64,000 bases of DNA from a virus, in IMG/VR virus record IMGVR_UViG_3300046724_000152, positions 1-64,000 of that record; one strand, 5' to 3'. This document shows, piece by piece, positions 18,964-52,178 of this stretch. The translations under genes and the position numbers were made by a program. Position 1 is the stretch's first letter. Every line of letters starts with the position of its first letter. A model generated the notes under the pieces. That model saw only the letters and a program-made list of their open reading frames with translations. It was not told the DNA's origin and searched no databases.

Positions 18964-19268
18964 TAGTCTTTCCTTGGATTAACGATTGGCGGGACTGCTT
19001 TATTCAGGCTGAAGTATTTGCATGATGGCGTGTCGAACGGAATTTTAGATCCATCCTTCTCCATCATGGTCGCGTATTTCTCACACTTACCGTTCTTCAG
19101 TGTACCTCCTCGATGAGTGCCCCGATTGCTCTTGTAGCCATTGAATTCGTAATGCTCGCACTCACGACAGGTTGTCCTCTTCGGCCCTGTTCCAGCCCAG
19201 AAGGCCATTCCAGGCGGAGTCTTGTCGCGTAAGTCATCGACTGATTTATCGACTACCGTTAGTTTCAT
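18963..19268 (-). CDS. Small cysteine-rich protein
   Basis: A 101-residue protein with CRECEHYEFNG, then KCEKY and CKYF, giving a four-cysteine set that could bind zinc or an iron-sulphur cluster. The N-terminus has TPPGMAFWAGTGPKRTTCRE. It is overlapped by both neighbours in the leftward operon. The function is unknown; a role with the adjacent OB-like protein is only a guess from position. Confidence 0.65.
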   Translation of the reverse strand: MKLTVVDKSVDDLRDKTPPGMAFWAGTGPKRTTCRECEHYEFNGYKSNRGTHRGGTLKNGKCEKYATMMEKDGSKIPFDTPSCKYFSLNKAVPPIVNPRKD

Positions 19269-20002
19269 ATTTCTTCCCTGTATGACGCTTCGACTCCAGG
19301 AGGAAGGTCTCCGGTTGCACGGCGATACTCTCGTGCCAGCTTCAGGATGGCTTCCTTGATTTCGTCGTTGGCTCCCATTTCTTGGAGTGCGGCTTGTGCG
19401 TCAACGACAACGAGCGTTTCTTTGGTCTTGAGGCTGACCGCTCGTGAGAAGCCGCCGGTAATTTTGACGTGGGTTTCTTTCTCCGTGAGGGCTGCTGCTC
19501 TTTGGGATTTCTCGAAGTCACGGAAGGCAATATCGGCATCTGCGACATGAGCCGCAACATCAACTCCAAGTTCTCCGTGATTAGCTGACTCAATTGCTTC
19601 ACGTTCGAGACGCTCAGCTTCACGCGCTTTGATCTCGGCTTCTCTAGCAAGTCCAGCAGCAACTCGATTTGCTTCTTCTCTAATGCGTCTTTCTTCTTTA
19701 ATAAAAGCCGTGAGTCGATCCGATAGCGTATCAACGACTTTAGAAATTCTTGCGGCGACTGGTCGGTATGAATTGTTGATTTCTTTGACTTCGTCATTAA
19801 GTGGTCCAACTCTTTTTTTGCGCTCATCTTCCATATCCTGGATAGCTAATTTTCCTCTATCGAGGAAAAGCTTGGCTTCTTTAGAAGATTCACTATTGAT
19901 AACTGGATTTTCTGCCATCCAAGCAGAAATATCTTTCATCGTTTGATCAGTAATTTCGATCATTCCTGGTGGAGAATTATGCCCGATAGCTGCATCGTTC
20001 AT
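19265..20002 (-). CDS. Coiled-coil early phage protein
   Basis: A 245-residue protein. Residues about 50-135 are a long charged coiled coil (RDxGKLAIQDMEDERKKR-like, then RRIREEANRVAAGLAREA and EIKAREAERLEREAIES). The C-terminus is globular (VDAQAALQEMGANDEIKEA). It resembles unnamed coiled-coil proteins beside phage recombination or SSB genes. The start codon sits 5-6 nt below the GAGG of the last pentamer of the array, so the array itself supplies the ribosome binding site. Confidence 0.7.
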   Translation of the reverse strand: MNDAAIGHNSPPGMIEITDQTMKDISAWMAENPVINSESSKEAKLFLDRGKLAIQDMEDERKKRVGPLNDEVKEINNSYRPVAARISKVVDTLSDRLTAFIKEERRIREEANRVAAGLAREAEIKAREAERLEREAIESANHGELGVDVAAHVADADIAFRDFEKSQRAAALTEKETHVKITGGFSRAVSLKTKETLVVVDAQAALQEMGANDEIKEAILKLAREYRRATGDLPPGVEASYREEI

Positions 20003-20007
20003 TTATT

Positions 20008-20639
20008 GGACCTCACCATGCCATGCCATGCCTAGCCCCGCCCAACCGGGCCTCTCCATTCCGCACCCTGTATCGCCGCGCCATGCCTCTCCTGGCCGGA
20101 CCACACCTCACCCAGCCATGCCTCGCCCCAGATCGCCATGCCTTGCCACACCGCACCCGACCCGGCCTTGCCCTACCTTGCCAGATGTCGCCTCACCCAA
20201 CCATTCCACGCCTGACCTGACCTCACCCAGCCATGCCGCTCCTCGCCACAGATCGCCAGACCTAGCCGTGCCTCACCGCACCTAACCATCCCAGACCACG
20301 CCAGACCACGCCCTGCCCGAGGCCAAGCCACACCTCACCACACCTCGCCTGTCCCTACCCAACCTAGCCCTATGCAGACATGCCTCGCCCAACCTCGCCA
20401 TGCCTTACCTAGCCAAGCCTTGCCAGATATCGCCATGCCGCACCCTTCCAAAGATCGCCATGCCTCACCAATCCGCACCTCACCAAGCCAATCCCAGCCT
20501 TGCCTTGCCGAACCAAATATCGCCATGCCCTACCTAACCCCGCCATGCCTTGCCGCGCCGCACCTTGCCCGATGTCGCCATGCCATGCCCAACCTTGCCA
20601 AAACAAGCCAGTCCTAACCCTACCGCGCCAGAACATGCC
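20008..20639. repeat. NNNCC/GGNNN pentanucleotide array, non-coding
   Basis: By hand count about 113 of 125 consecutive in-phase 5-mers end in CC on the plus strand, while the three other bases vary freely (ATGCC, TCACC, TTGCC, GCACC, CAACC). There is one phase change, +2 nt at 20318-20324. Read leftward, in the sense of the flanking genes, this is GGNNN, most often GGY. The non-conforming units recur: CTGTA, CCAGA, AGATG, ACAGA, AGATA, AAAGA, AAATA, CGATG at 20068, 20128, 20183, 20248, 20425, 20450, 20515, 20570, each followed by TCGCC. Short open frames in it are periodic by-products (Trp/Gly/Arg or Pro/Leu/His-rich) and are not called genes. It lies between two leftward genes. Confidence 0.95.
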
Positions 20640-20649
20640 AGAGCCTTAA

Positions 20650-20681
20650 CCTAGACCGCTCCATTTCTGGAACGGTCTAGG
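20650..20681 (-). terminator. Strong hairpin bordering the pentamer array
   Basis: Arms CCTAGACCGCTCC (20650-20662) and GGAACGGTCTAGG (20669-20681) pair over 13 positions with one G-U wobble in the leftward RNA, around a 6-nt loop. It lies between the stop of the gene at 20695 and the array. There is no T-run after it, so it may be a processing or structural hairpin rather than an intrinsic terminator. Confidence 0.6.
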
Positions 20682-20694
20682 TAAAGCATTGAGA

Positions 20695-21312
20695 TTACTC
20701 GTAATTAACGATGCCAAATCGGCCAAATGTTGGTCGATGATCACCGATTCCCACTAATCTACCAGCACTTTCAATAGTTTCTCGCAAAATATTTCGATCA
20801 ATATATTCCGGCAACAAAACCATCAGCTCGATAGTCGCCTTCCAGCCAGCCCTGAAGGCTGGACGGACTCTGTTGATGCCCTGACGTTGGACAGTGACCC
20901 GGCACTTATCGAGGTAATCCCACTCCTTGGTACCCATGCTGGCAAGGTGTGTGGTTGCGACGATACCGGCCTTGTAGAGATCCATCGCACTCTTTCGTGG
21001 CGAGCGTGGATCCTGCCGGAATTTTGCAGCGTTGATGATCGAGCCGCGAAGATACAAACCAGGAAGGCAGATGTAGCCTTCCTCATTACGGTAGACATAG
21101 CTCTCGACGTTGTCGGTTTTCTTCGCCTTGGAGTTCTTGGCTGCTGCGCCTTTTGCATCAACCTCTTCGGCATTCCAGCGATGGAAGATCAGATCCGCTG
21201 CTCCCTCGATGGTCACCTCTACCGAGTATGGCTCGCTGAAGGAAATCGGCTCCTCGCCGCCATTGGTCGGCTCCTTGATAACAATAACCTTAGCTGTGCC
21301 TTGTTTAGCCAT
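20695..21312 (-). CDS. Conserved phage protein with RAMP-like features, unknown function
   Basis: A 205-residue protein. Conserved-looking segments are LPGLYLRGSIINAAKFRQD (about residues 86-104), RPAFRAGWKATIELMVLLPE (about 148-168) and a Gly-rich end GRLVGIGDHRPTFGRFGI. The last resembles G-x-G-D-x-R-P-x-x-GRF endings seen in many phage proteins of unknown role and is loosely reminiscent of RAMP folds. It is the gene directly upstream, in transcription order, of the GGNNN array. I do not assign a function. Confidence 0.65.
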   Translation of the reverse strand: MAKQGTAKVIVIKEPTNGGEEPISFSEPYSVEVTIEGAADLIFHRWNAEEVDAKGAAAKNSKAKKTDNVESYVYRNEEGYICLPGLYLRGSIINAAKFRQDPRSPRKSAMDLYKAGIVATTHLASMGTKEWDYLDKCRVTVQRQGINRVRPAFRAGWKATIELMVLLPEYIDRNILRETIESAGRLVGIGDHRPTFGRFGIVNYE

Positions 21313-22097: not shown

Positions 22098-22506
22098 ATG
22101 GCGGTTCTGGACCGCTGATAAAGTCGAGAAAGTTAAGACGATGTGGGCGGACGGGTATTCCGCCTCACGGATTTCCGAGGAGATCCCCGGTTCGACTAAG
22201 AACTCCATTATTGGTAAGGTGCATAGGCTGCACCTGCCGGAGCGAAAGAAGCGAAAAAATCCAAGTCACTTCAAGCGGGAGAAGGTCAGGGCCATGGTCA
22301 TGGTCAAGCCCAAGCCAAAGCCAGCCCCGAAACCCAGGCCCAAGGATGGCATCCCATTCCTGGAGGCCGATTCCACCACCTGCCGGTCGGTCCAAGGGCG
22401 GGATCCCAACGGAATCCTGGTTTGGTTCTGTCCCAAGCCCAAGGCGGCCAATCAGTCGTTCTGCCCCCACCATCTGGGCATCTATTACACCGGGAGCCGC
22501 CGATGA
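22081..22506 (+). CDS. gcrA: GcrA family cell-cycle regulator
   Basis: A 141-residue protein. The N-terminal 50 residues, WTADKVEKVKTMWADGYSAS then ISEEIPGSTKNSIIGKVHRL, match the GcrA DNA-binding helix bundle (W-T-x-E/D, W-x-x-G-x-S-x-x-I, N-x-V/I-IGK-x-HRL). A basic Lys/Pro linker follows. The C-terminal CRSVQG...WFCPKPKAANQSFCPHH is the cysteine/histidine module of GcrA. GcrA is an alphaproteobacterial sigma70 cofactor acting at CcrM-methylated promoters. A phage copy with both ends intact could redirect host cell-cycle transcription. Confidence 0.9.
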   Translation: MTGTGEWRFWTADKVEKVKTMWADGYSASRISEEIPGSTKNSIIGKVHRLHLPERKKRKNPSHFKREKVRAMVMVKPKPKPAPKPRPKDGIPFLEADSTTCRSVQGRDPNGILVWFCPKPKAANQSFCPHHLGIYYTGSRR

Positions 22507-23057
22507 CGATCAAGGAGATCACCGAGAATGCCAAGCAGATCAGGGACCGGCTCAGACACCCGCCGAATGCGGTTCATGACACTGGTATTGACCTAACCAA
22601 GAAATCCAGCTCGCATCGTGGTGACGAGCCCAATCCGGATCCACCGATCAAGAAGATGCTTGAGATGCTTCCGGAGCCACCCAGAAAGCGCTATCAGTTC
22701 GCGCCTTCCAGGAAGTGCCTGATCTTTGATGATATTCTAGAGGCCGTCTCGACGCACTATGGAGTCTCGATAGAGGCCATCAGGGGTCCAAGCAGGCGGA
22801 CCCACACTGGTTTTGCCCGCTTTGTCGTGGTTCACCTTGCCATCAAGCTGTCCAAGAAGCCCTCGCTCTCCGCCATAGGCAGGAACCTGAACAAGGACCA
22901 TACTTCGATCCTTCATGCCAGGAACCGCATCAAAGCAATCATTGCTGGCAATGCCCAGGTAGCAGCCGAGGTCAAGATGCTGGAGACGTACCTTGAAAGA
23001 CTCCATCACTATCGATCTTCCATTCCCTCCGAGCGTCAATTCTATTTGGAGGGGTAG
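22503..23057 (+). CDS. DnaA domain IV-like protein
   Basis: A 184-residue protein starting at ATG 22503 (ATGA overlap with gcrA). The first 75 residues are charged and probably flexible. Residues about 80-150 (FDDILEAVSTHYGVSIEAIR, then VVVHLAIKLSKKPSLSAIGR and NKDHTSILHARNRI) carry the DnaA C-terminal DNA-binding signature (x-x-GRx-x-x-DHT-x-x-LHA). No ATPase domain is present. It could bind DnaA boxes to control phage replication or compete with host DnaA. It overlaps rusA by 65 nt. Confidence 0.88.
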   Translation: MTIKEITENAKQIRDRLRHPPNAVHDTGIDLTKKSSSHRGDEPNPDPPIKKMLEMLPEPPRKRYQFAPSRKCLIFDDILEAVSTHYGVSIEAIRGPSRRTHTGFARFVVVHLAIKLSKKPSLSAIGRNLNKDHTSILHARNRIKAIIAGNAQVAAEVKMLETYLERLHHYRSSIPSERQFYLEG

Positions 23058-23379
23058 TGGCAAGAGGGTCTACCGGACCAAGGAGTACATCTCCTGGCTC
23101 ACCAACGCCAATGGCCACTGGCTGCTCCAGCGAAGCTCCATGCCGGTCAGATCCATCCCAGAGCATTATTCGCTCAAACTGATCTTGCATGCCCCTGACA
23201 AGCTGATCAGGGATGTCGGCAACTACGAGAAGGTGTCATCCGACTTCCTGCAAATGGCGAGGATCGTCCGAAACGACTGTCTGTGCCTCGATCTTCATGT
23301 CGTCTGGGGCAGCTCCGCAGATGCCCCTCACGGGGCCAGAATGATCGTAAGTCCGATGGAATTGGAGGGTACCTACTAG
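22993..23379 (+). CDS. rusA: RusA-type Holliday junction resolvase
   Basis: A 128-residue protein. The opening ITIDLPFPPSVNSIWR, then VYRTKEYISWL, and the acidic core LIRDVGNYEKVSSDFLQMAR with NDCLCLDLHV fit the RusA family, in which Asp residues of a D-x-x-N-x-x-K-x-x-x-D motif bind metal and cleave four-way junctions. The length is typical (about 120). It would resolve recombination intermediates before packaging. Confidence 0.88.
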   Translation: MKDSITIDLPFPPSVNSIWRGSGKRVYRTKEYISWLTNANGHWLLQRSSMPVRSIPEHYSLKLILHAPDKLIRDVGNYEKVSSDFLQMARIVRNDCLCLDLHVVWGSSADAPHGARMIVSPMELEGTY

Positions 23380-42392: not shown

Positions 42393-42700
42393 GACGGCGT
42401 CACCGTTGTGACCGGCTTGTCCGGTGGCGGTAAGGGATAGGCCGCCGCTCGCTGAGCGAGGGCATCGACCTGGATCATGAACTGCTGGTCCATGTAGGCG
42501 CTGCTTTGCAGCGAGACCCTGGGAACCCAGGCCGTCATCGGTGCTTGTTTGTTTCTCCAGACTTTCAGCATCAGCGTGTCGAATGGATTGTCGACCTTGA
42601 TATCGGCAAGGAGGCTGAACTTGGCCGCCTCGGCGGTGACAATGGGCAGCAGGATCGCTTGGATCTGTTCGAGGCTCTGGCCTGGATCGAATGGGTTCAT
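42389..42700 (-). CDS. Small protein, sugar operon
   Basis: A 103-residue protein from ATG 42700 that overlaps the NeuB-type stop by 4 nt: FDPGQSLEQIQAILLPIVTA then DTLMLKVWRNKQAPMTAWVP and FMIQVDALAQRAAAYPLPPP. No family recognised. Confidence 0.6.
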   Translation of the reverse strand: MNPFDPGQSLEQIQAILLPIVTAEAAKFSLLADIKVDNPFDTLMLKVWRNKQAPMTAWVPRVSLQSSAYMDQQFMIQVDALAQRAAAYPLPPPDKPVTTVTPS

Positions 42701-43701
42701 TTCAGTGCATCTCCCCTGCGGTACTTCATCCCGGCCTTGCGGCCTATCAAGCTGGGCAACAGCTTGCATGGTAACCCATAGCCCGGTCGGATCGAACCGA
42801 TATTCTCCAGCGAGAACTTCTCGCCCTTCTTGATGTCCTGGATGGCATAGAGACTCCGCCTGACCTGCCGGGTCGGATTGCTGTCCATCTTGGTCGGCTG
42901 CATGGCGGCATAGGTCTGCCTGACCTGATTAACCATGTGGGCAAAATCCCGTGGTCCCATCGAGAACTCGTCGTCCTCGGACACCACGTCCGGCAGATGG
43001 CCGAAGTGCTTCTCGATGATGCAGGCCCCGACCGCTACTGCTGCAATTGGCGCAAGGCTTCCTTCAGAATGGTCCGACAGTCCGACAACAGATCGTGGAA
43101 GCAGTCGCTGCAAGTGTCGGATCCCGCCAAGGTTAGATGTTTCGATGGTTCCAGGATATTCCGACATACAGTGCAGAAACGCGGCTTTGCCTCCGGAAGC
43201 CTGATCCGCGTCTTTGATCTCCTGGTCATTGCCCATCCCTGTAGAAATGATCATCGGTTTGCCGGTCGAGGCGGCATATTCAATCAATGGAATATCCACC
43301 AGTTCCATCGAGGCGATCTTGTAAGCCGGACAGTTCAACTTTTCCAAATGATCGATAGCCGACATATCGAACACCGAACTGAAGATGGTAATCCCGGAAT
43401 CCTTGGCCACCCGGTACAGATCCGGATGCCAGTCGAATGGGGTATGCGCCTTCTTGTATAGCTCCCACAGGGTCCGGCCCTTCCACAGCCCCTCCTGCAC
43501 GATGAAGTCAGGCTTGTTCAGTTCGAGCGTAATGGTCTGCGGCTCATAGCACTGGGTCTTGATCGCCGAGGCCTTGGCTAATTTGGCCATCCGGATGATC
43601 TTCTTGGCGTTATCCAATGAGCCGCCATGGTTGCAGCTCATCTCGGCAATCACATAGGGCGGAAACTTCGGCCCGATATTGACCTTGTCGATCTTCATCA
43701 A
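42697..43701 (-). CDS. pseI: Nonulosonic acid synthase (NeuB/PseI family)
   Basis: A 334-residue protein. YVIAEMSCNHGGSLDNAKKI, AIKTQCYEPQTITLE, FSSVFDMSAIDHLEKLNCPA, YKIASMELVDIPLIEYAA and LSDHSEGSLAPIAAVAVGAC are hallmark NeuB segments, and the end (RSLYAIQDIKKGEKFSLENI, SIRPGYGLPCKL) is the SAF domain. The enzyme condenses phosphoenolpyruvate with a 6-carbon amino sugar. ATI-type TQCYEP is nearest to pseudaminic acid synthases. Expected metal and PEP residues are present by pattern. Confidence 0.88.
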   Translation of the reverse strand: MMKIDKVNIGPKFPPYVIAEMSCNHGGSLDNAKKIIRMAKLAKASAIKTQCYEPQTITLELNKPDFIVQEGLWKGRTLWELYKKAHTPFDWHPDLYRVAKDSGITIFSSVFDMSAIDHLEKLNCPAYKIASMELVDIPLIEYAASTGKPMIISTGMGNDQEIKDADQASGGKAAFLHCMSEYPGTIETSNLGGIRHLQRLLPRSVVGLSDHSEGSLAPIAAVAVGACIIEKHFGHLPDVVSEDDEFSMGPRDFAHMVNQVRQTYAAMQPTKMDSNPTRQVRRSLYAIQDIKKGEKFSLENIGSIRPGYGLPCKLLPSLIGRKAGMKYRRGDALK

Positions 43702-43886
43702 TTCCCCTTCGGGTCATCTCTGAGCTTTATCAACTCGGCGATCACCGTATCGAGACTGCCTCGTGGAAGGACAATCTGTTTGACGAAGCAGTCGTCCTCG
43801 TCATAGGCGGCAAAGTGAATGCCGTCGCACTCATCGCAGGTGAAAATCTGGACACGAACACAGTCCTCATCGATTTGCAGGATCAT
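43698..43886 (-). CDS. CDxC-IH small protein, copy 1
   Basis: A 62-residue protein: VRVQIFTCDECDGIHFAAYD then RGSLDTVIAELIKLRDDPKG. It is a paralogue of the next gene upstream, sharing CD-x-C-x-x-IH-x-A-x-Y and the I-x-E-x-x-K-x-RD ending. Possible metal site. Embedded in the sugar operon. Confidence 0.7.
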   Translation of the reverse strand: MILQIDEDCVRVQIFTCDECDGIHFAAYDEDDCFVKQIVLPRGSLDTVIAELIKLRDDPKGN

Positions 43887-44087
43887 TCAATCCTCCTTTA
43901 GATTCAATTGATCCCGGATCTTCATCATCTCGACAATGACAGCGTTAAGATCGTCCCGTCGAATCAAGGCCTGTCCTCGCAGGGTCTCATCCGGTGCATA
44001 CATGGCGACGTGGATATCGGCGCAACTGTCGCACAGGAATACCGTGATATGACAGTCGTTGGCTTTAGCTTTGAATGGAATGTCCAT
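43887..44087 (-). CDS. CDxC-IH small protein, copy 2
   Basis: A 66-residue protein from ATG 44087 (overlap with the next stop): HITVFLCDSCADIHVAMYAP then RDDLNAVIVEMMKIRDQLNL. Same motif set as copy 1. A tandem duplication. Confidence 0.7.
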   Translation of the reverse strand: MDIPFKAKANDCHITVFLCDSCADIHVAMYAPDETLRGQALIRRDDLNAVIVEMMKIRDQLNLKED

Positions 44088-44362
44088 CAGCCCTCCTTCA
44101 GCGCGGCATCGATCATGTCCATCCACCGCTCCGCCGTCATGTCATGCTCGTAGGTGTCGTTGCCCGCCAGCAGCATCTCTTCGGTTGGCACCCGCATCTC
44201 GAACAGGCAGGCCCTGGCGATCATCTTGACCCGGCCCTGGTCCAGGAAGTCCAGTTCTTCGTATCTGGGTGCCCCCTCCGGAGCGTTGACCTTCCAGATG
44301 GCCATTGCCACCCGCTCGATCATGGTCGGTTCCACTGGTTCGTCCATCTTTCCTCCAGTCAT
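44087..44362 (-). CDS. Small helical protein
   Basis: A 91-residue protein: TMIERVAMAIWKVNAPEGAP, FLDQGRVKMIARACLFEMRV and HDMTAERWMDMIDAALKEG. This type (ERVA-x-AI-x...W-x-x-M-I-D-A-A-L) is common in phages. Unknown function. It is wholly overlapped in another frame by the C-terminal extension of the next open frame. Confidence 0.65.
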   Translation of the reverse strand: MTGGKMDEPVEPTMIERVAMAIWKVNAPEGAPRYEELDFLDQGRVKMIARACLFEMRVPTEEMLLAGNDTYEHDMTAERWMDMIDAALKEG

Positions 44363-44828
44363 CGATGTTGAACTTGCTCATGCCGATCAGCCGTTCCTGC
44401 GGCACCCACCAGCCCGACGAGTCGTTCTTCTTGTCGTAGGTCCAGAACTCGTGGCGCATGGTATCCTTCAGCATCATCCACCCGGCGATGACGAAGGTAA
44501 AACCGCGCCGTGGCGTGATCACCAGGACATAGGGCCGCTCCATGTCGGTATCGCTGGGATTGGTGATCAGATGGCCGCTTGCCACGGGCGTCGAGCGGAT
44601 CTGCACCCCGAGAACATCCGGAGCCTTGTAGCTGCCGTTGGTCGGCTGCCAATAGACGCCATACTGCTTGGCCAGCATCTGCTCGGCATTAGCTCCGTCG
44701 ATGTCACAGGACCAGTCGGACTTGGCGGCTTCGAGCCGGTTTGGCGAGCCACGCTCCAGCGAAGCGATACGGCGGTCAACACCACAGATGGCTCCGATCC
44801 GCAGTTCTGTCGGTGTGGCATCGATCAT
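44142..44828 (-). CDS. Restriction-endonuclease-fold-like protein
   Basis: A 228-codon frame from ATG 44828. RLEAAKSDWSCDIDGANAEQ, MLAKQYGVYWQPTNGSYKAP and DVLGVQIRSTPVASGHLITN give an E...PD-V...Q-x-R/K order typical of PD-(D/E)XK-like folds, followed by VLVITPRRGFTFVIAGWMML and WTYDKKNDSSGWWVPQERLI. The homologous part probably ends near residue 155 (FNIDDWRK). The remaining codons run in a different frame over the gene 44087-44362, so the stop seems lost or the extension is accidental. The nuclease activity is inferred. Confidence 0.6.
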   Translation of the reverse strand: MIDATPTELRIGAICGVDRRIASLERGSPNRLEAAKSDWSCDIDGANAEQMLAKQYGVYWQPTNGSYKAPDVLGVQIRSTPVASGHLITNPSDTDMERPYVLVITPRRGFTFVIAGWMMLKDTMRHEFWTYDKKNDSSGWWVPQERLIGMSKFNIDDWRKDGRTSGTDHDRAGGNGHLEGQRSGGGTQIRRTGLPGPGPGQDDRQGLPVRDAGANRRDAAGGQRHLRA

Positions 44829-44842
44829 GATCCTGTCTTCGG

Positions 44843-45973
44843 TCACTGGAGCGAGTCCCCTACTTCCTTGAAGATCTGACGCATGATCTTTCGCTGCTTC
44901 CTGTTGGGCGAATACGAGCAGACCTCGAAGGTCATCAGGTCGCAATCCTCCAGCGTTTCCGCTATTGGATGCACATCTGGCATGTTGAACACCCGATGTA
45001 GTGGCGGTGCGTAGCCCTCACGCAACGGCAGACCGAAGCTGTTGATGCGGGCAACGAACTGCCGACGATCCCAATGCCAGATCTTGGCGGCCCAGATGTA
45101 ATAGACATGATGGCAACCGTCCCGCTCGACCGGCGGATGGATGTTCGGATAGTCGAACACCATGTCGGTCAGCTCTAACGCCAGCTCCCTGCGATTCTCG
45201 ATGATACCCGGACCTTTGCTCAACTGCGCCGAGGCCAGAGCCGCAATCGGCTCCGTCATTCTGAGGTTCAGACCCATGATCCCAGGCCGCAGCTCGCCGT
45301 GATTGACGGCATCTCTTACCTTGAGGGCGAGGTCGTCGTCGTCGCTGACGACGATTCCTCCTTCCCCAGTCTGGAGATGTTTATGAATGTTAAGGCTAAA
45401 CACACCAAGATGGCCGACAGTGCCAGCGTAATGATCACCGACTTTGGCAAACGGACTCTGCGCATTGTCTTCGATCATCCAGACTTTGTTGTGGTCACAC
45501 CAACGTCTTATCTCTTCGAGATAAGCCGGATGACCGAACAGGTTGGTGACGATAACAGCTTTTGGCTTTCCCTTCGAACCGCCGATCTGCTTAAGATCCA
45601 TGGAGAATGTAACAGGCTCGATATCGATGAATTCTACATTTGCTCCAAGGATTTTAGCGCAGGATGCCGTGGCACTCATGGTGGTGGCAGGGCACCAGAC
45701 CCTATCTCCGGGCCCAATGCCGACCGCCATGCATGCCGCCATCAACCCCGATGTGGCAGAATTACAGGGCACGGCATGTCGTACACCGAACGTAGATTGC
45801 CACTCGTCTGCGAGGCGCTGAACCCAATAGCCACCAGCATGATGACCACCAAGATAACCACTAAAAGGACGGCCCAAGGTCGATAGTACATAGCTCCTCT
45901 CCAGCCAGTTGCGGGTCTCGAACGGCTTCAGCACCCCAAGCTTGCTCTTCAACTTCGGCCCTAGTTTGTGCAT
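44843..45973 (-). CDS. DegT/DnrJ/EryC1 aminotransferase (PseC-like)
   Basis: A 376-residue PLP enzyme starting at ATG 45973, overlapping the RmlD-like stop by 13 nt. AVPCNSATSGLMAACMAVGI (substrate/phosphate loop), VTNLFGHPAYLEEIRRWCDH, MIEDNAQSPFA (PLP Asp) and SLNIHKHLQTGEGGIVVSDD (PLP Lys) are the family signatures. Such enzymes transaminate 4-keto sugars. In the operon it would aminate the PseB product. Confidence 0.85.
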   Translation of the reverse strand: MHKLGPKLKSKLGVLKPFETRNWLERSYVLSTLGRPFSGYLGGHHAGGYWVQRLADEWQSTFGVRHAVPCNSATSGLMAACMAVGIGPGDRVWCPATTMSATASCAKILGANVEFIDIEPVTFSMDLKQIGGSKGKPKAVIVTNLFGHPAYLEEIRRWCDHNKVWMIEDNAQSPFAKVGDHYAGTVGHLGVFSLNIHKHLQTGEGGIVVSDDDDLALKVRDAVNHGELRPGIMGLNLRMTEPIAALASAQLSKGPGIIENRRELALELTDMVFDYPNIHPPVERDGCHHVYYIWAAKIWHWDRRQFVARINSFGLPLREGYAPPLHRVFNMPDVHPIAETLEDCDLMTFEVCSYSPNRKQRKIMRQIFKEVGDSLQ

Positions 45974-46812
45974 CGTATGCTCTGGCACATCCTGGCGATG
46001 TCCTGCTCCATGTTCGGCAGGGTAAAGCCGAACTTGCTCTCGACCCTGGTCAGGTCCAGCCTTGTGTCGAGCGGACGTGGAATCCGCCCTGGGATACCGA
46101 CCGACTCCACCGGTCGCAGCCCCTTCAGGCTGTGGCCGAGGCCGTTGGCCAACAGCGCGGCAAACTTGGCTTTCGACATGCCGCTGGAAGAACCGAGATT
46201 GAAGGTGCCGGTTCGTGGCGTGTTGGCCATGGCCACCAGCCGTTCCGCCAAGGTCTGAGCCCACAGCGGACTGAACATGGCATCGGTATAGACATTGAAC
46301 TCGACGCCTGACTTCAGCTTGCCGATCATGAAATCGGCCAGACTGCTCCTGGCCGGTGATCGCGCTGACCCATAGAAATTGGTCCGCACGATCAGGTGGT
46401 TCTGCACCTTGGCGGCGGCAAACTCGCCCATGAACTTGCTCATGCCGTACATATTGATGGGATTCTCGCTCTTGGAATGCTCGCGGTGCGGGCCGTTGCC
46501 GGAGTACACCATGTCGGTTGATATATAAATCAACCGGCAGTTCCCCGGCATGTGAGCAGCGATGTTCTCCACCATGCCGCAGTTGTAGAGTACCGCCTTG
46601 TTCGGATCCTTCTCGCACTCATCGATGTCGGTCAGCGCCGCAGCATGAACGATCATCTGCGGCGCTGTTTTTGCCATCCACGTCCTGACGCTGTCCCAGT
46701 CGGTCAGATCGCAACTGCTTCTGGCCAAGCCCTCGACAGTGCCAAGCCTGGAGAATGCCATCTTCAGGTACGGCCCCAGCAGCCCGGTGTCGCCCGTGAC
46801 CAGGATCCTCAT
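45961..46812 (-). CDS. RmlD-like SDR sugar reductase
   Basis: A 283-residue protein. GDTGLLGPYLKMAFSR (glycine-rich NAD(P) loop), DLTDWDSVRTWM, VHAAALTDIDECEKDP, STDMVYSGNGPH and NMYGMSKFMGEFAA (YxxxK) match the dTDP-4-dehydrorhamnose reductase type (extended SDR). In this cluster it would reduce a keto sugar of unknown identity. Starts at ATG 46812. Confidence 0.82.
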   Translation of the reverse strand: MRILVTGDTGLLGPYLKMAFSRLGTVEGLARSSCDLTDWDSVRTWMAKTAPQMIVHAAALTDIDECEKDPNKAVLYNCGMVENIAAHMPGNCRLIYISTDMVYSGNGPHREHSKSENPINMYGMSKFMGEFAAAKVQNHLIVRTNFYGSARSPARSSLADFMIGKLKSGVEFNVYTDAMFSPLWAQTLAERLVAMANTPRTGTFNLGSSSGMSKAKFAALLANGLGHSLKGLRPVESVGIPGRIPRPLDTRLDLTRVESKFGFTLPNMEQDIARMCQSIRCTN

Positions 46813-46829
46813 GTCCGTGTCAGCTCCTG

Positions 46830-47036
46830 TTACTTGGCGAGGTGGGTCCAGATCTTGCCGATCCGGTTGTCGTACTTCTGGATGTGGTTGATGACGCGAC
46901 CGGATTCCCTGGGTGCCTCGCGAACGGCGATGGCCAACAGCTCCATCCACTTGTCGTTGTTCCTGACCCTGATCTTGGCCATCCGGTCGATCAGGCTGCG
47001 CTTGGTCTTCGGTAACTCTTTGCGCTTCGTTCTCAT
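46830..47036 (-). CDS. Small basic protein, sugar operon
   Basis: A 68-residue protein from ATG 47036 (4-nt overlap with the upstream stop): MRTKRKELPKTKRSLIDRMA then MELLAIAVREAPRESGRV and NHIQKYDNRIGKIWTHLAK. Basic and helical. No family recognised. Confidence 0.6.
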   Translation of the reverse strand: MRTKRKELPKTKRSLIDRMAKIRVRNNDKWMELLAIAVREAPRESGRVINHIQKYDNRIGKIWTHLAK

Positions 47037-47986
47037 AACATCCCTCTCAGTTGTTCGATGGTTAACCAATCGACATTAGTGTCGCTGGTGTAGCGCCATC
47101 CTGGAGGCACACGATTCTCGTAGTCTCTTTTTTTATGTCCAGGCTGGTCGATGCAGTAGAAGTTTGCGAAATCGGTTGTGTTCAGGCTTTCGTCTTCGGT
47201 GATCAGTGTCTCGTGGATTTTTTCTCCAGGTCTGATGCCGGTGTTGAATTCCAGAAATCCGTAATCGTCGCAAACAGCAACTGCAAGATCTCTGATTCTA
47301 ATCGATGGAATCTTCGGTATGAGAATCTTCGAGTGAATTCCGACACTAGCCAACTCCTCTGCGTAGAGGACCAGCTTAACGCTCTGATCCATGGTGATCC
47401 AGAACCGCGTCATTCTTTCATCGGTAACCTTGAGGACTTTGCCCTCCGCCTTTCGCTTCTTAAATAATGGAAGAACAGAACCCCGCGAACCGGCAACATT
47501 GCCATATCGCACAACATTGTAATGGCACCCGCCAGCGGCCAAGGCATTCGCTGCGACAAATATCTTTTCCGCTGCAAGCTTCGATGCACCATAAAGGTTG
47601 ATTGGATTAACGGCCTTATCTGTCGATAGTGCGACAACTCGCTGGACCTTAGCTCTGAGCGAAGCCTTAACCACATTCTCAGCCCCTGTGACATTGGTGG
47701 CGATGCATTCGGTTGGATTGTACTCGGCGGTCGGCACGATCTTCAGCGCGGCGGCATGGATCACGGTATCGATGCCACGCATTGCCATCTCCAGACGGTC
47801 GAGGTCGCGGACATCGCCAATGAAGAAGCGCAATCGCTCGTCGTTGAAGCTATGCGCCATCTCCTCCTGGGTATGTTCGCCCCTGGAGTAGATTGCGATT
47901 CGCTCGACACTCGGATCCTTGAGTATCCGACTGGCGAAGGCTTGGCCGAACGAGCCTGAGCCGCCAGTGATCAGGACGGATTTCAT
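47033..47986 (-). CDS. pseB: UDP-GlcNAc 4,6-dehydratase, PseB-like
   Basis: A 317-residue protein. MKSVLITGGSGSFGQAFASR (GG-S/T-GSFG), YSRGEHTQEEM, FFIGDVRDLDRLEMAMRGID, VIHAAALKIVPTAEYNPTEC, VVALSTDKAVNPINLYGASK (S-T-D-K-A, Y-G-A-S-K) and VRYGNVAGSRGSVLPLF are hallmarks of PseB/FlaA1-type inverting 4,6-dehydratases. The length agrees with PseB (about 330). It would make the 4-keto sugar that begins pseudaminic-type synthesis. Confidence 0.88.
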   Translation of the reverse strand: MKSVLITGGSGSFGQAFASRILKDPSVERIAIYSRGEHTQEEMAHSFNDERLRFFIGDVRDLDRLEMAMRGIDTVIHAAALKIVPTAEYNPTECIATNVTGAENVVKASLRAKVQRVVALSTDKAVNPINLYGASKLAAEKIFVAANALAAGGCHYNVVRYGNVAGSRGSVLPLFKKRKAEGKVLKVTDERMTRFWITMDQSVKLVLYAEELASVGIHSKILIPKIPSIRIRDLAVAVCDDYGFLEFNTGIRPGEKIHETLITEDESLNTTDFANFYCIDQPGHKKRDYENRVPPGWRYTSDTNVDWLTIEQLRGML

Positions 47987-50019
47987 GCGGACTTTCTTAA
48001 GGATTGACCGGCGATAGTACCTTTGAGGCGACTCGACATGATGCCTTGCTGCAAGACATCATTGATTACATCCATGGTATGTTTATAGGCTCGACGGATG
48101 ATCTCGATCTCTGGATCTTTAATGGCGTAAGATACGCAATTAGCATTCAGGATCAGCACACCCATCCGCGCCATTTCCTGGGTGAACAGAGCCTGGATCT
48201 GTTCCTTGGTTGCGCCAAGGAAATCATGAACGTCCAGTTTCAGGAGCGGTGGCGAGCCACGAAACGCAATTGGACCAGAATAGTGTGATGTTCTTTCAAG
48301 TAGCGGTGCTTCAGATCGGATCTTCAATCCAACAGAGTATAGATGATCAAGGACGTTCTCCCGTTCCATCTTCTTGATAGTGGCGAGTGCAGCAGCCATC
48401 GACAGAGTGTCACCAAAGAAGGTGCCGGAGAAGAACACGCCGAGGTGGCCGTTCAGCATCTTCATGATCCCGGCATCACCGACCAGAGCCGAGATCGGCA
48501 TTCCGTTGGCCATCGACTTGCCGAAGCAAGCAAGATCGGGTGTGACACCAAAATACTCCTGACCACCGCCCATGGCGTAACGGAAGCCAGTCTGGATCTC
48601 ATCGAAGATCAGAATGATTTCGTTCCTGGTACACCATGACCGTAATGCCTGGAGGTATTCCCTGTCGTGGGTTGGCTCGACAATGACGGCGGCGACATCG
48701 CTCCAGTCTTCGCCCCAGTCTCTTAATTCATCGAGATCACCGTATTCGATCTTGTGTGACAGATTGGTTACGGATTCTGGAATTCCTTTGTTCTTTCCTT
48801 CCAGTGTTGAGGCTGACCAATCAGCCCAGCCATGGTAGGATCCGATTAGAATATGATCCCGTTCGGTGTAGGCCCTGGCCAGCCTGACTGCCGCCGATGT
48901 CACATCGGTACCGGACTTGCCGAACTGGACCTTATCGGCACAAGGAATCAGGTCGCACAGCTTCTCGCTTAACTCACATTCAAGCTTGGTGGCCAGACTG
49001 AAGCTCATGCCGCAGTTCAGTTGCCGCCGCACCGCCTCATCAACGTCAGGATCGCGGTAACCTAGGACAACAGGAAGTAGAGCATTAACAAGATCAACAT
49101 AGTCGTTCCCATCAACATCAAAAATCCTCGCACCATCGCCATGAGAGGCGAATAGTGGAGCCCCGCCCCTGGGATACCAAAGAGCAGACTTCGAGTATGT
49201 TTGGGACCCAAGGGGAATTGTCCTGGTGGCTCGTACCAGCAGCTCATCTGACCGTTGATATGTTCGTTCTGGTAATCGTTCTCCAGCGAGGTCCTGGTAG
49301 AACCGCTCATTTCGAATGGCTCCAGCATTGATTTGCCTCAGGTGTGGGTTGTCATCGAGGATCCGCATGATATGCATGCATGTCGGCGGGAAAGCCAGCG
49401 GCAGTTGCTTGGCGATTTCCTTGCACAGCTCGTAGTCTTCCTTGGTGTCGAGGACCCATCGCTCCTTGTGTGCCCCAGGAAACGGGCAAATCAGGTATTC
49501 CTGGGAGAACCGATCCCGGTTGCGGATGATCCACTGTGTCACACAGTCCCGATCTGTCTTCCTGGTGGTCTCTCTCCAGGCTGTTTCCAGCGCATCGAAG
49601 GTGAGACACTCGACATCCAATCCGTCTGGCCATGTCGGCTGGTTGGAACAGTACGAAGCACCCGTCGTCTTTTGTAGTTGGACGACCTGTCCGACCACAT
49701 AAGGGTCGAGGAACGGACAATCACAGGTGATTCGCAGGATAATGTCGGCTTTATAGTCTTTCGCACATTGATAATAGCGGTTCAGCACATCCTTTTCTGA
49801 GCCACGGAAGCAATCGATGCGGTTCTGTCTGCAATCCTTGGCTAGAACATCATCGGATTCCAGCGTGGTGGTGGCGATCACCACCTGATTGACTCCTGGA
49901 GAGTTGACTAACGCCCGCCAGACCCAGCGATACACCGGCATGCCTCCGAGTGGAGCCATCACCTTGCCAGGGAACCGCGTCGAGCCCATCCTAGCCTGGG
50001 CAATCGCAACGACTTTCAT
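47983..50019 (-). CDS. Fusion: SpsF/PseF-type cytidylyltransferase + class III aminotransferase
   Basis: A 678-residue fusion. Residues 1-240: MKVVAIAQARMGSTRFPGKV, LGGMPVYRWVWRALV and LRITCDCPFLDPYVV are nucleotidyltransferase motifs of the SpsF/NeuA class that activates sugar acids. Residues 255-678: PLGSQTYSKSALWYPRGGAP, FGKSGTDVTSAAVRLARA, LIGSYHGWADWSAST, LIFDEIQTGFRYAMGGGQEY (PLP Asp) and LACFGKSMANGMPISALVGD (PLP Lys) identify a glutamate-1-semialdehyde-like class III aminotransferase. Both modules look complete. Confidence 0.85.
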   Translation of the reverse strand: MKVVAIAQARMGSTRFPGKVMAPLGGMPVYRWVWRALVNSPGVNQVVIATTTLESDDVLAKDCRQNRIDCFRGSEKDVLNRYYQCAKDYKADIILRITCDCPFLDPYVVGQVVQLQKTTGASYCSNQPTWPDGLDVECLTFDALETAWRETTRKTDRDCVTQWIIRNRDRFSQEYLICPFPGAHKERWVLDTKEDYELCKEIAKQLPLAFPPTCMHIMRILDDNPHLRQINAGAIRNERFYQDLAGERLPERTYQRSDELLVRATRTIPLGSQTYSKSALWYPRGGAPLFASHGDGARIFDVDGNDYVDLVNALLPVVLGYRDPDVDEAVRRQLNCGMSFSLATKLECELSEKLCDLIPCADKVQFGKSGTDVTSAAVRLARAYTERDHILIGSYHGWADWSASTLEGKNKGIPESVTNLSHKIEYGDLDELRDWGEDWSDVAAVIVEPTHDREYLQALRSWCTRNEIILIFDEIQTGFRYAMGGGQEYFGVTPDLACFGKSMANGMPISALVGDAGIMKMLNGHLGVFFSGTFFGDTLSMAAALATIKKMERENVLDHLYSVGLKIRSEAPLLERTSHYSGPIAFRGSPPLLKLDVHDFLGATKEQIQALFTQEMARMGVLILNANCVSYAIKDPEIEIIRRAYKHTMDVINDVLQQGIMSSRLKGTIAGQSLRKSA

Positions 50020-50915
50020 TCCAGTCCCGCCTGTTTACGAACCTCAAGACAGATTTTGAGAACCTCAAGACCTTCTTCACCGGTACAGCCGATGGTTTCT
50101 TTGCCATCGATGCGGTCCAGGAATGCCTGCATTTCTTCAACATAATTTTCGTTCCAGGTGTCGAAGCCTTGATAACTATCAATAGGTCGCTCAATACCGA
50201 AGACGGCACCATTCCTATTCACAAGGTCACAGGAGATGCGACCATTATCACCAATGATGGTGAAGAACCTTAATTCCGGTCTTGTAACGTAATCCAGATG
50301 AACCGTAGTTCGACATCCTATGTCATGCGTTAAGAGAATATCCGATATATCGTCCTTGCCATTAGTGAGGCAAGTCGATGAGCCAGCAACGATAGCAGGG
50401 CCAAGAAGGTAAAGAGCAAGATCCAACTCATGGCTCCAATTGAGAATAACACCATCGCGTAGATAATGAGGTCGGTCGTTGTATTGACCGAGTGTAAAAT
50501 TGGCCCAGATTGGCTTTCCAATAATCCCAGCACCTAACCACTCCTTGGCTTTCTTGACGCAGCTATGGTAGCGGAGATTGTAGCCAACCATTGCTCTTTG
50601 GTTAAACGAGCTTGGCTCAACTATCGCCGGTAGAAGTATGTCGTATTCTTGTTGTGTGGTGGCGATTGGTTTCTCAATTAATATCGGTTTTGGATGTGTC
50701 ACTATAATATGTTTATAGTGCTGATCTGTCGGGCTGGCGATGACGAATGCATCCAAATTTATCAGCCTTGATTCCGGCCATAGCCTCCAGAAGGAAGGGA
50801 AATCCTCTGCGGCCACCTCGGGATCAAAACCAACAACATTATGGCCCATAGCCATGAGATTCTTGGCATGCCTCATGCCGATACTGCCAAGCCCAATCAC
50901 ACCGACTGTTTTCAT
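50016..50915 (-). CDS. Gfo/Idh/MocA oxidoreductase
   Basis: A 299-residue protein. MKTVGVIGLGSIGMRHAKNL (Rossmann GxGxxG), DAFVIASPTDQHYKHI and PILIEKPIATTQQEYDILLP (EKP) are the family signature; LNWSHELDLALYLLG matches the conserved H-D/E-x-x-x. It acts on a sugar or a sugar-acid precursor. 4-nt overlaps with both neighbours. Confidence 0.82.
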   Translation of the reverse strand: MKTVGVIGLGSIGMRHAKNLMAMGHNVVGFDPEVAAEDFPSFWRLWPESRLINLDAFVIASPTDQHYKHIIVTHPKPILIEKPIATTQQEYDILLPAIVEPSSFNQRAMVGYNLRYHSCVKKAKEWLGAGIIGKPIWANFTLGQYNDRPHYLRDGVILNWSHELDLALYLLGPAIVAGSSTCLTNGKDDISDILLTHDIGCRTTVHLDYVTRPELRFFTIIGDNGRISCDLVNRNGAVFGIERPIDSYQGFDTWNENYVEEMQAFLDRIDGKETIGCTGEEGLEVLKICLEVRKQAGLE

Positions 50916-51064
50916 TTAGGCACACAATAGAGGTATTTCCATTTATCTTTATGAAGAGTCTCCATTGCGGCGCGACATGATTGCTCCGAATTAAACTCAA
51001 TAGAGTAAGGTACATATCCGCTATAAACAGCAACAAACATTATCAAGATCCATGGTGTCATCAT
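50912..51064 (-). CDS. Small membrane or exported protein
   Basis: A 50-residue protein from ATG 51064 (GGAGAAGAA before it): MMTPWILIMFVAVYSGYVPY then SEQSCRAAMETLHKDKWKYL and YCVPK. An N-terminal hydrophobic segment and two cysteines suggest export. Unknown. Confidence 0.55.
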   Translation of the reverse strand: MMTPWILIMFVAVYSGYVPYSIEFNSEQSCRAAMETLHKDKWKYLYCVPK

Positions 51065-51666
51065 TTCTTCTCCGGGAATGCGTTTTTGAGATCCTTCTTG
51101 AGGATCGTAACGCTGGTTTCGTTTTGAATGGTTCGCCCATAGAGCGAATAGCCGGGATGGCTGAGCCACAGATTGGCAAAGTCGTAGTGATACGAGAACA
51201 GCCCAGGCTTATGCTTGTAGGGGACTCGGTGTGCAGCGGCTGGCGTGAAGTCATGGACGATGAGAAATCCACCATCCTGTAGAACCTGATCTCCCTCGAA
51301 TGCGATTTCGAAATAGTCCTCGGGGTCACAGAGATAGAGACACCATCCGTAGATCAGAAGATCTGCCAAGTTTGGTGAGAAATGATGCGAGAGCTTGTCT
51401 GCGGTGCCAGCCCAGACCTGGACCTTGGATTGTCCTCTGGTCGAGATATAACACGGATCAATCCCCTCGACCTCACAGTCGTATCTCTGTTCGATGATGG
51501 CGAGCCGCCAGCCATTGGAACAGCCAATCTCAACCGCTCTCTTTGGTTTGATGTTGTATACCTCAAGCGCTTGCAGGACCGGATCGTTCTTTCCGGTCAG
51601 CTTGGCTTCATTGCGCTTCAGCCATTCGGCTCCCTCGCCAAGGGCGAAGACTCTAGATTGCTTCAT
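51061..51666 (-). CDS. SAM-dependent methyltransferase
   Basis: A 201-residue protein from ATG 51666. RAVEIGCSNGWRLAIIEQRY is the SAM-binding motif I (E-x-G-x-x-x-G), DCEVEGIDPCYI is motif II, and LADLLIYGWCLYLCDPEDYF followed by LQDGGFLIVHDF completes a class I methyltransferase. It may methylate the sugar or a related molecule. Confidence 0.82.
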   Translation of the reverse strand: MKQSRVFALGEGAEWLKRNEAKLTGKNDPVLQALEVYNIKPKRAVEIGCSNGWRLAIIEQRYDCEVEGIDPCYISTRGQSKVQVWAGTADKLSHHFSPNLADLLIYGWCLYLCDPEDYFEIAFEGDQVLQDGGFLIVHDFTPAAAHRVPYKHKPGLFSYHYDFANLWLSHPGYSLYGRTIQNETSVTILKKDLKNAFPEKK

Positions 51667-52178
51667 GGTGCGAATTTTCCAAAGGTCCACATGCTCATCG
51701 GCTGACCGTCAAACAGGAAATGACCGGGAACGACTGCCTCTTGGCTCATTCCATACTCGGTGCAAATTTTGATCATTTTGACGTTTGCTACCATGCAGCC
51801 CGCCTCGATTTTTCTGATTTGCTTTCTGGCAAACAGATAATCACAGACCGCCTTCCAGGCTTCGTAGCCATAGCCGTTGCCCCACTGGGTCCTGTCTCCG
51901 ATCATGATGGCGACATTGGCGAGGTTGTTTTTGTCGTCCACATTGACTGATATCGATCCAATCGCGGCATAGGATGTCAGCAACCGAATCGTATTGGTGC
52001 TGTTAGGTTCCACGGTCGCGGCGGAGTACCAATAATCAAGTTGGGTGTCCGCTGAGTGGGTGTAGTGCCGGTGTTCCGAGTATTTGACGACCTCTGGATC
52101 GTTCAGCCATTCCGCAAATTGCGGTGCATCCGAAGTGTGGACCGGACCAATCTCTAGACGTGGAGATTTCAGAATCAT
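51663..52178 (-). CDS. GNAT acetyltransferase, PseH/RimJ-like
   Basis: A 171-residue protein. LKSPRLEIGPVHTSDAPQFA (typical RimJ/PseH opening), ANVAIMIGDRTQWGNGYGYE (R-x-x-x-x-G-Y-G-x-E acetyl-CoA loop) and IEAGCMVANVKMIKICTEYG (N-x-x-M-I) match the GNAT_3 type. In the pathway it would acetylate the 4-amino sugar made by the DegT enzyme. Confidence 0.8.
   Translation of the reverse strand: MILKSPRLEIGPVHTSDAPQFAEWLNDPEVVKYSEHRHYTHSADTQLDYWYSAATVEPNSTNTIRLLTSYAAIGSISVNVDDKNNLANVAIMIGDRTQWGNGYGYEAWKAVCDYLFARKQIRKIEAGCMVANVKMIKICTEYGMSQEAVVPGHFLFDGQPMSMWTFGKFAP

Follow-up and report, generated by a model that had tools for sequence, protein, structure and literature searches.

The Viral Interference Programmable Repeat system, VIPR, combines a phage-encoded protein, Vipr, which is an ancestral RAMP, with vrRNAs (PMC13142463, bioRxiv 2026.04.26.720920). 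A vrRNA consists of 9–16 GGY/NN units and a structured invariable 3' tail; its NN pairs read DNA noncontiguously, with a 1-nt skip falling on the wobble base, and the function of the system is the repression of competing mobile elements (PMC13142463). RNA processing, RNP formation, the 1-nt skip and repression have been shown in SUSP1, which is a type II VIPR (PMC13142463). The preprint names seven VIPR types, including staggered and ribozyme-interspersed arrays, and mentions staggered arrays with overlapping vrRNAs (PMC13142463, fig. S18).

The window analysed here is a stretch of 64,000 nt, positions 1 to 64,000 of the IMG/VR virus record IMGVR_UViG_3300046724_000152, in which a first-pass annotation had singled out a long run of pentamers. 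This run is a real feature and belongs to a new VIPR locus, of a kind already explained by the 2026 preprint (PMC13142463); we hold with high confidence that the locus is that of an uncultured tailed phage, in which vipr precedes a compact vrRNA guide array. As in SUSP1, a Vipr RAMP of the same family is encoded in a phage genome, and GGY/NN pentamers adjoin vipr on the sense strand, GGYNN being the published vrRNA consensus. Protein, fold, repeat grammar, location and host element thereby all correspond to VIPR. Guide length may also be comparable, with mostly 10–13 units per segment in the window and 9–16 per guide in the SUSP1 preprint. In contrast to the separate vrRNAs of SUSP1, each of ~100 nt with a structured tail, the window holds one fused array of about ten segments, and its putative guides are bounded by a non-GG pentamer after GGCGA rather than by the structured 3' tail of published vrRNAs, a difference that we count against the VIPR reading.

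The window Vipr shares its fold and G-loop with the RAMPs of Class 1 CRISPR-Cas systems (Csm3/Cas7), and Vipr, like them, would be expected to place one subunit on each short segment of RNA and to leave gaps in the pairing. Unlike Class 1 systems, the window lacks a CRISPR array, the genes annotated around its pentamer array include none of cas1/cas2, Cas10 and Cas5/6, and the VIPR code has a period of 5, not 6, with repeat letters inside the guide. TRAP-type RNA-binding rings bind NAG-N2 repeats, which, as in the window, combine a trinucleotide and two free bases with a period of 5. Unlike TRAP, the window protein is a RAMP and the motif is GGY rather than (G/U)AG.

Structure of the array and its surroundings

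The array and the features next to it all lie on the minus strand:

20695–21312, minus strand: vipr gene, 205 aa, RAMP (Cas7/Csm3-like) predicted RNA-binding protein, phrog_4652, directly upstream of the array
20643–20687, minus strand: strong hairpin in the gap that separates the vipr stop codon from the array
20003–20639, minus strand: putative vrRNA array of 127 pentamers (114 GG, 103 GGY) in about 10–11 guide segments
19265–20002, minus strand: co-directional gene directly downstream of the array, 245 aa, phrog_10477 (PHROG category DNA/RNA metabolism, exonuclease)

On the minus strand, where the array runs from 20639 to 20003, a 2-nt insertion at 20318–20319 splits it into a block of 64 pentamers and a block of 63 in a different phase. 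By direct count, 114 of the 127 units start with GG and 13 do not, and the GG dinucleotides fall in a single phase on each side of the shift (55 before, 58 after); the first-pass count of about 125 pentamers, about 12 exceptions and one 2-nt phase change was accurate. At lag 5 the array has 105 GG pairs, whereas 2000 first-order Markov sequences of matching composition averaged 31 (sd 7.3) and never had more than 59. These pairs reach 36 per 200-nt stretch in the array and at most 7 everywhere else in the 64-kb window, and no second run of GG pentamers of this kind was found in the full 75.5-kb virus record. A near-identical array (99.97–100%) is present in the independently assembled contigs L130 and L132, which argues that it is not an assembly artefact.

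Tandem Repeats Finder reported no repeat at the array, so the units are not copies of one another, and this bears out the earlier statement that it is not a simple tandem repeat. There are 35 distinct N3 triplets, all 16 NN dinucleotides are used, and the longest exact repeat measures 18 nt. The first-pass annotation had given the unit as GGNNN; GG every 5 nt stands, and the three free bases do not, as base 3 of the GG units is mostly a pyrimidine (C 63, T 40, A 10, G 1; 11 GGR units). The unit is GGYNN, with bases 4 and 5 free.

The array starts ~56 nt past the vipr stop codon, is intergenic and lies in sense orientation. The RNA sense proposed earlier, that of the flanking genes, is thus correct: vipr, the downstream gene and the GG all lie on the minus strand. 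The non-GG units are not randomly placed, since 8 of the 13 come after GGCGA, typically as GGCAT GGCGA followed by YATCT, TCTTT, TACAG or similar, and the intervals between interruptions are mostly 10–13 units long, so that the array falls into some ten or eleven segments:

20570–20639, minus strand: segment A, ending GGCAT GGCAT GGCGA CATCG
20515–20569, minus strand: segment B, ending GGCAT GGCGA TATTT
20450–20514, minus strand: segment C, ending GGCAT GGCGA TCTTT; NN string TC AA AA TG TT TT GA GC TT GA AT GA
20425–20449, minus strand: segment D (short), ending GGCAT GGCGA TATCT
20370–20424, minus strand: segment E, ending GGCAT GTCTG CATAG
20318–20369, minus strand: segment F, ending at the 2-nt phase shift
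20248–20317, minus strand: segment G, ending GGCGA TCTGT
20183–20247, minus strand: segment H, ending GGCGA CATCT
20128–20182, minus strand: segment I, ending GGCAT GGCGA TCTGG
20068–20127, minus strand: segment J, ending GGCGC GGCGA TACAG
20003–20067, minus strand: segment K, ending GGTGA GGTCC AATAA and adjoining the start codon of the next gene

Segments A, D and E are irregular against the 10–13-unit spacing. Folding of the array itself gave z = -1.9, and the sole recurring boundary is the short in-phase element of GGCGA plus a YATCT-like pentamer. The hairpin at 20643–20687 is strong (MFE -57.1 kcal/mol for the 126-nt stretch, z = -5.0), found no credible match in an Rfam search, and could be a leader or processing element. 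The gap in which it lies, from the vipr stop codon to the array, spans only 0–25 nt in many relatives. More generally, Rfam families and ribozymes were absent at useful scores in the window and at gathering score in 11 related loci.

The protein of the 19265–20002 gene had no match when searched against phages; a role as accessory gene of the VIPR locus is possible. By tblastn, the genes adjoining the window array have no relatives in other VIPR loci, and no vap accessory gene was identified, a further point that we count against the VIPR reading. Elsewhere, the window encodes a protein with a DnaA C-terminal DNA-binding domain (22422–23057; PF08299, E=5.7e-16) and a weakly RusA-like one (22993–23379), relatives of which lie directly downstream of arrays in three other loci (L027:7059-7385, L125:4061-4303, L071:7239-7571). 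A sugar-biosynthesis cluster at 42697–52178 (NeuB, a polysaccharide epimerase, a cytidylyltransferase fused to an aminotransferase, an oxidoreductase and a GNAT protein) suggests nonulosonic acid synthesis by the phage.

A RAMP protein encoded upstream of the array

The window vipr contains no stop or frameshift. Its product matches phrog_4652 (E=3.4e-17), as do all 75 aligned family members, and Pfam offered no fitting family for the Vipr family. A profile of the 75 members matched the PDB entry 36pp_D, "SUSP1 Vipr protein", with E = 6.8e-41; the window protein as a single sequence reached E=1.9e-5 against the same entry, and by this distance it probably lies outside the SUSP1 clade. Its AlphaFold2 model has a pLDDT of 93, and the best 50 Foldseek matches listed for it are all CRISPR RAMP chains (best E=5e-7), Csm3 and type VII Cas7 chains at the top. 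The C-terminal motif GRLxGxGDFRPxxGRF fits a RAMP G-loop in place and character, GxGDxRPxxGRF being conserved, and W157, G188 and G197 are invariant in the family:

C-terminal G-loop of the window Vipr: GRLVGIGDHRPTFGRF

No CRISPR-type repeat array was reported by Tandem Repeats Finder, and the RAMP had no cas companion in the genes examined. Among the roles listed by the first-pass annotation, that of a platform for a multimeric RNA/DNA-binding protein came close to this answer; the earlier interpretation as a whole is partly supported.

Association of gene and array in other genomes

The scan of viral DNA for period 5 that had been proposed was run on IMG/VR with the pattern CC(N3CC)x10 and without protein information, and yielded at least 120 viral loci. 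The flanking genes of these relatives, likewise put forward for study, showed an association: a profile search found one protein family, phrog_4652, encoded beside the array in 83 of the 120 pattern loci listed, versus none of 80 control loci. We count against the VIPR reading the 37 of the 120 listed loci where no vipr was detectable, which are short contigs, low-diversity arrays or chance matches. Most arrays of the pattern loci are flanked by co-directional genes and carry their GG in sense, and they often start 0–25 nt past the stop codon of a gene of ~200–240 codons. Across 91 arrays with diverse triplets, base 3 is C in 0.72, T in 0.22, A in 0.05 and G in 0.01 of the units, and the consensus GGYNN is common to all.

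The reciprocal search by protein in bacterial genomes gave 30 loci, and an array lay within about 1 kb of vipr in 22 of them, always in sense, as against none of 81 controls; the eight without an array at the threshold applied are also counted against the VIPR reading. A reversed-sequence control for arrays is uninformative because the period is symmetric. The genomes concerned include Thermomonas, Alicyclobacillus, Stenomitos and many Phycisphaerales assemblies. Phage heid, a Felixounavirus, served as a positive control: here the array finder recovered the layout reported from SUSP1, with GGY runs in one region upstream of vipr, three downstream arrays and the same grammar as in the window. 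Relatives of vipr with short GGY arrays also occur in phages LESphi2, MakoManhole and DSL-LC04; in LESphi2 (L269, a Pseudomonas phage and prophage of P. aeruginosa LESB58), vipr is annotated as hypothetical (1842–2588) and a 10-unit GGY array lies upstream.

Three other loci illustrate how guides may be delimited. The L114 Vipr is 42% identical to that of the window, and its array (L114:4603-5047) has ~11–13 GGTNN units per guide, each closed by GGCTAATG or a variant; in this AT-rich phage the array is cleanly modular, guide closure being GGCTA followed by ATG or AT. It is a good model for short-tail vrRNA arrays and an even cleaner version of the fused in-phase array than the window. In L116:1968-3536, a recurring element of ~35 nt (GGGAGCAGCAGCATCCGGCGYAAAGGGATGGAC) stands between guide blocks in a run of ~285 pentamers, and L125:4357-5142 holds three arrays with conserved spacers of ~90 nt between them that end in CGATACACGAGAGACAAGCGA. 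Neither element had an Rfam match at gathering score; the L125 spacers are possible ribozymes or processing elements.

Codon phase of the variable letters

If guides are read from genes and the skipped base lies at the wobble position, the NN letters are expected to be codon positions 1–2 on either strand. A six-phase mixture model, with coding sequence of the same loci as reference, was fitted to 3434 NN of 69 loci. The fit assigned 0.71 to codon positions 1–2 in sense, 0.29 to positions 1–2 in antisense and ~0.00 to the other four phases. The bootstrap 2.5% bound of the 1–2 sum was 0.81, somewhat optimistic as the 69 loci are partly related, and random dinucleotides gave a mean of 0.30 and a maximum of 0.42. 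The window array alone gave 0.70 for sense positions 1–2, with wide limits. This signature supports the wobble-skip code and needs no targets. The first-pass view that selection acts on spacing and not on sequence holds for the spacing, which is kept; the variable bases, taken there as free filler, are read here as guide code.

Search for targets

No natural target was found with confidence for any segment of the window array, which we count against the VIPR reading. The best match of segment C was 21 of 24 letters at L113:9961, codon-phased and in an AEP-TOTE primase; by our own arithmetic, ten guides searched against 2.2 million positions should give ~0.004 such matches by chance. Relatives of the L113 primase never exceeded 21 of 24 letters, and the exact 9-unit string of segment C is absent from IMG/VR. 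A degenerate search with segment C returned one match, ten consecutive units in codon phase at L244:4617. The gene concerned is small, lies downstream of an ATPase, looks DUF669-like by eye and had no Pfam match. As targets, the L113 primase and the DUF669-like gene are only suggestive. A 9-unit match of segment H, out of codon phase and with mismatching flanks, was judged to be chance, and matches of segments G and J had no convincing extension past the searched core. When four guides were searched in 40 whole records with at most three mismatches, the L113 match alone recurred. An all-against-all guide search in 2 Mb of collected loci gave one 19/20 match with a skip of 1; apart from it, no skip rule was clearly in excess.

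Alternative explanations

The array might be a relic beside an intact vipr, either decayed or serving as a decoy or autoregulatory Vipr site on vipr's own mRNA. Its 13 non-GG and 11 GGR units, the failure to find a target and its place within the 3' part of the vipr transcript fit this explanation, which we nevertheless consider improbable: the array keeps phase over 630 nt, its interruptions follow a pattern and are not random, most coming after GGCGA and most intervals being 10–13 units long, independent assemblies contain the array in identical or near-identical form, and vipr itself has no stop or frameshift.

The role favoured by the first-pass annotation was a G-quadruplex rod, in which any four consecutive GG tracts with 3-nt loops would form two-tetrad quadruplexes along the RNA or ssDNA. 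The GG-N3-GG spacing formally fits that pattern, but quadruplexes give no reason for the loop to begin with a pyrimidine, mostly C, that would compete by G-C pairing, and they leave unexplained both the near-constant neighbouring RAMP gene and the codon-phase signature of NN. We rejected this role from the third-base bias in the 91 arrays, where G makes up ~1%, and regard it as very improbable.

There is next to no chance that the array lacks a function of its own and is either an ancestral tandem repeat in decayed copies or a coding repeat that went unrecognised, as its weak self-similarity (64–68% between shifted copies) is expected from the shared GG grid alone, decay would affect GG as well as N, a period of 5 breaks codon phase, which also upholds the earlier call of non-coding DNA, and both possibilities, which had been named beforehand as outcomes to look for, are contradicted by the Tandem Repeats Finder result and by the 91-array consensus, the same grammar recurring with different letters beside the same gene family in unrelated phages.

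Discussion

The gene, the fold, the array grammar, the gene–array association and the codon-phase signature of NN come from the present analysis, and RNA processing, RNP formation, the 1-nt skip rule and repression from the SUSP1 preprint (PMC13142463). Taking the locus as VIPR, a leftward transcript would carry the Vipr message first and then the array, and would give rise to guides of roughly 10–13 GGYNN units. Vipr subunits, as single-RRM RAMPs, would coat this RNA at one per pentamer, with GGY held by the G-loop and thumb and NN presented. The NN letters would pair with double-stranded DNA at two of every three bases, the skipped base usually being the codon wobble, and the bound RNP would keep the target gene from being transcribed; rival phages, prophages or satellites are the most likely carriers of such genes.

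The unusual trait of the window member is its fused, in-phase array with minimal boundary elements, an architecture that may be that of the published staggered arrays (fig. S18). Tentatively, and with less than even confidence, we propose that it is a continuous in-phase multi-guide cassette, in which ~ten guides without structured tails are delimited only by the pair of GGCGA and a YATCT-like pentamer, which keeps the 5-nt register, and in which many rival genes would be addressed simultaneously, either by a single long Vipr filament or by overlapping guides that are cut at these boundaries. If true, processing and assembly would differ in mode from those of the separate ~100-nt vrRNAs of SUSP1.

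VIPR is a newly described form of RNA-guided DNA recognition, thought to predate CRISPR, and the period-5 GGY grammar alone is enough to detect its arrays in raw DNA. To these the window phage adds one of the longer arrays seen in this analysis, with about ten guide segments; such a many-guide phage array is a place to ask about guide processing, guide acquisition and the competitors of the phage.
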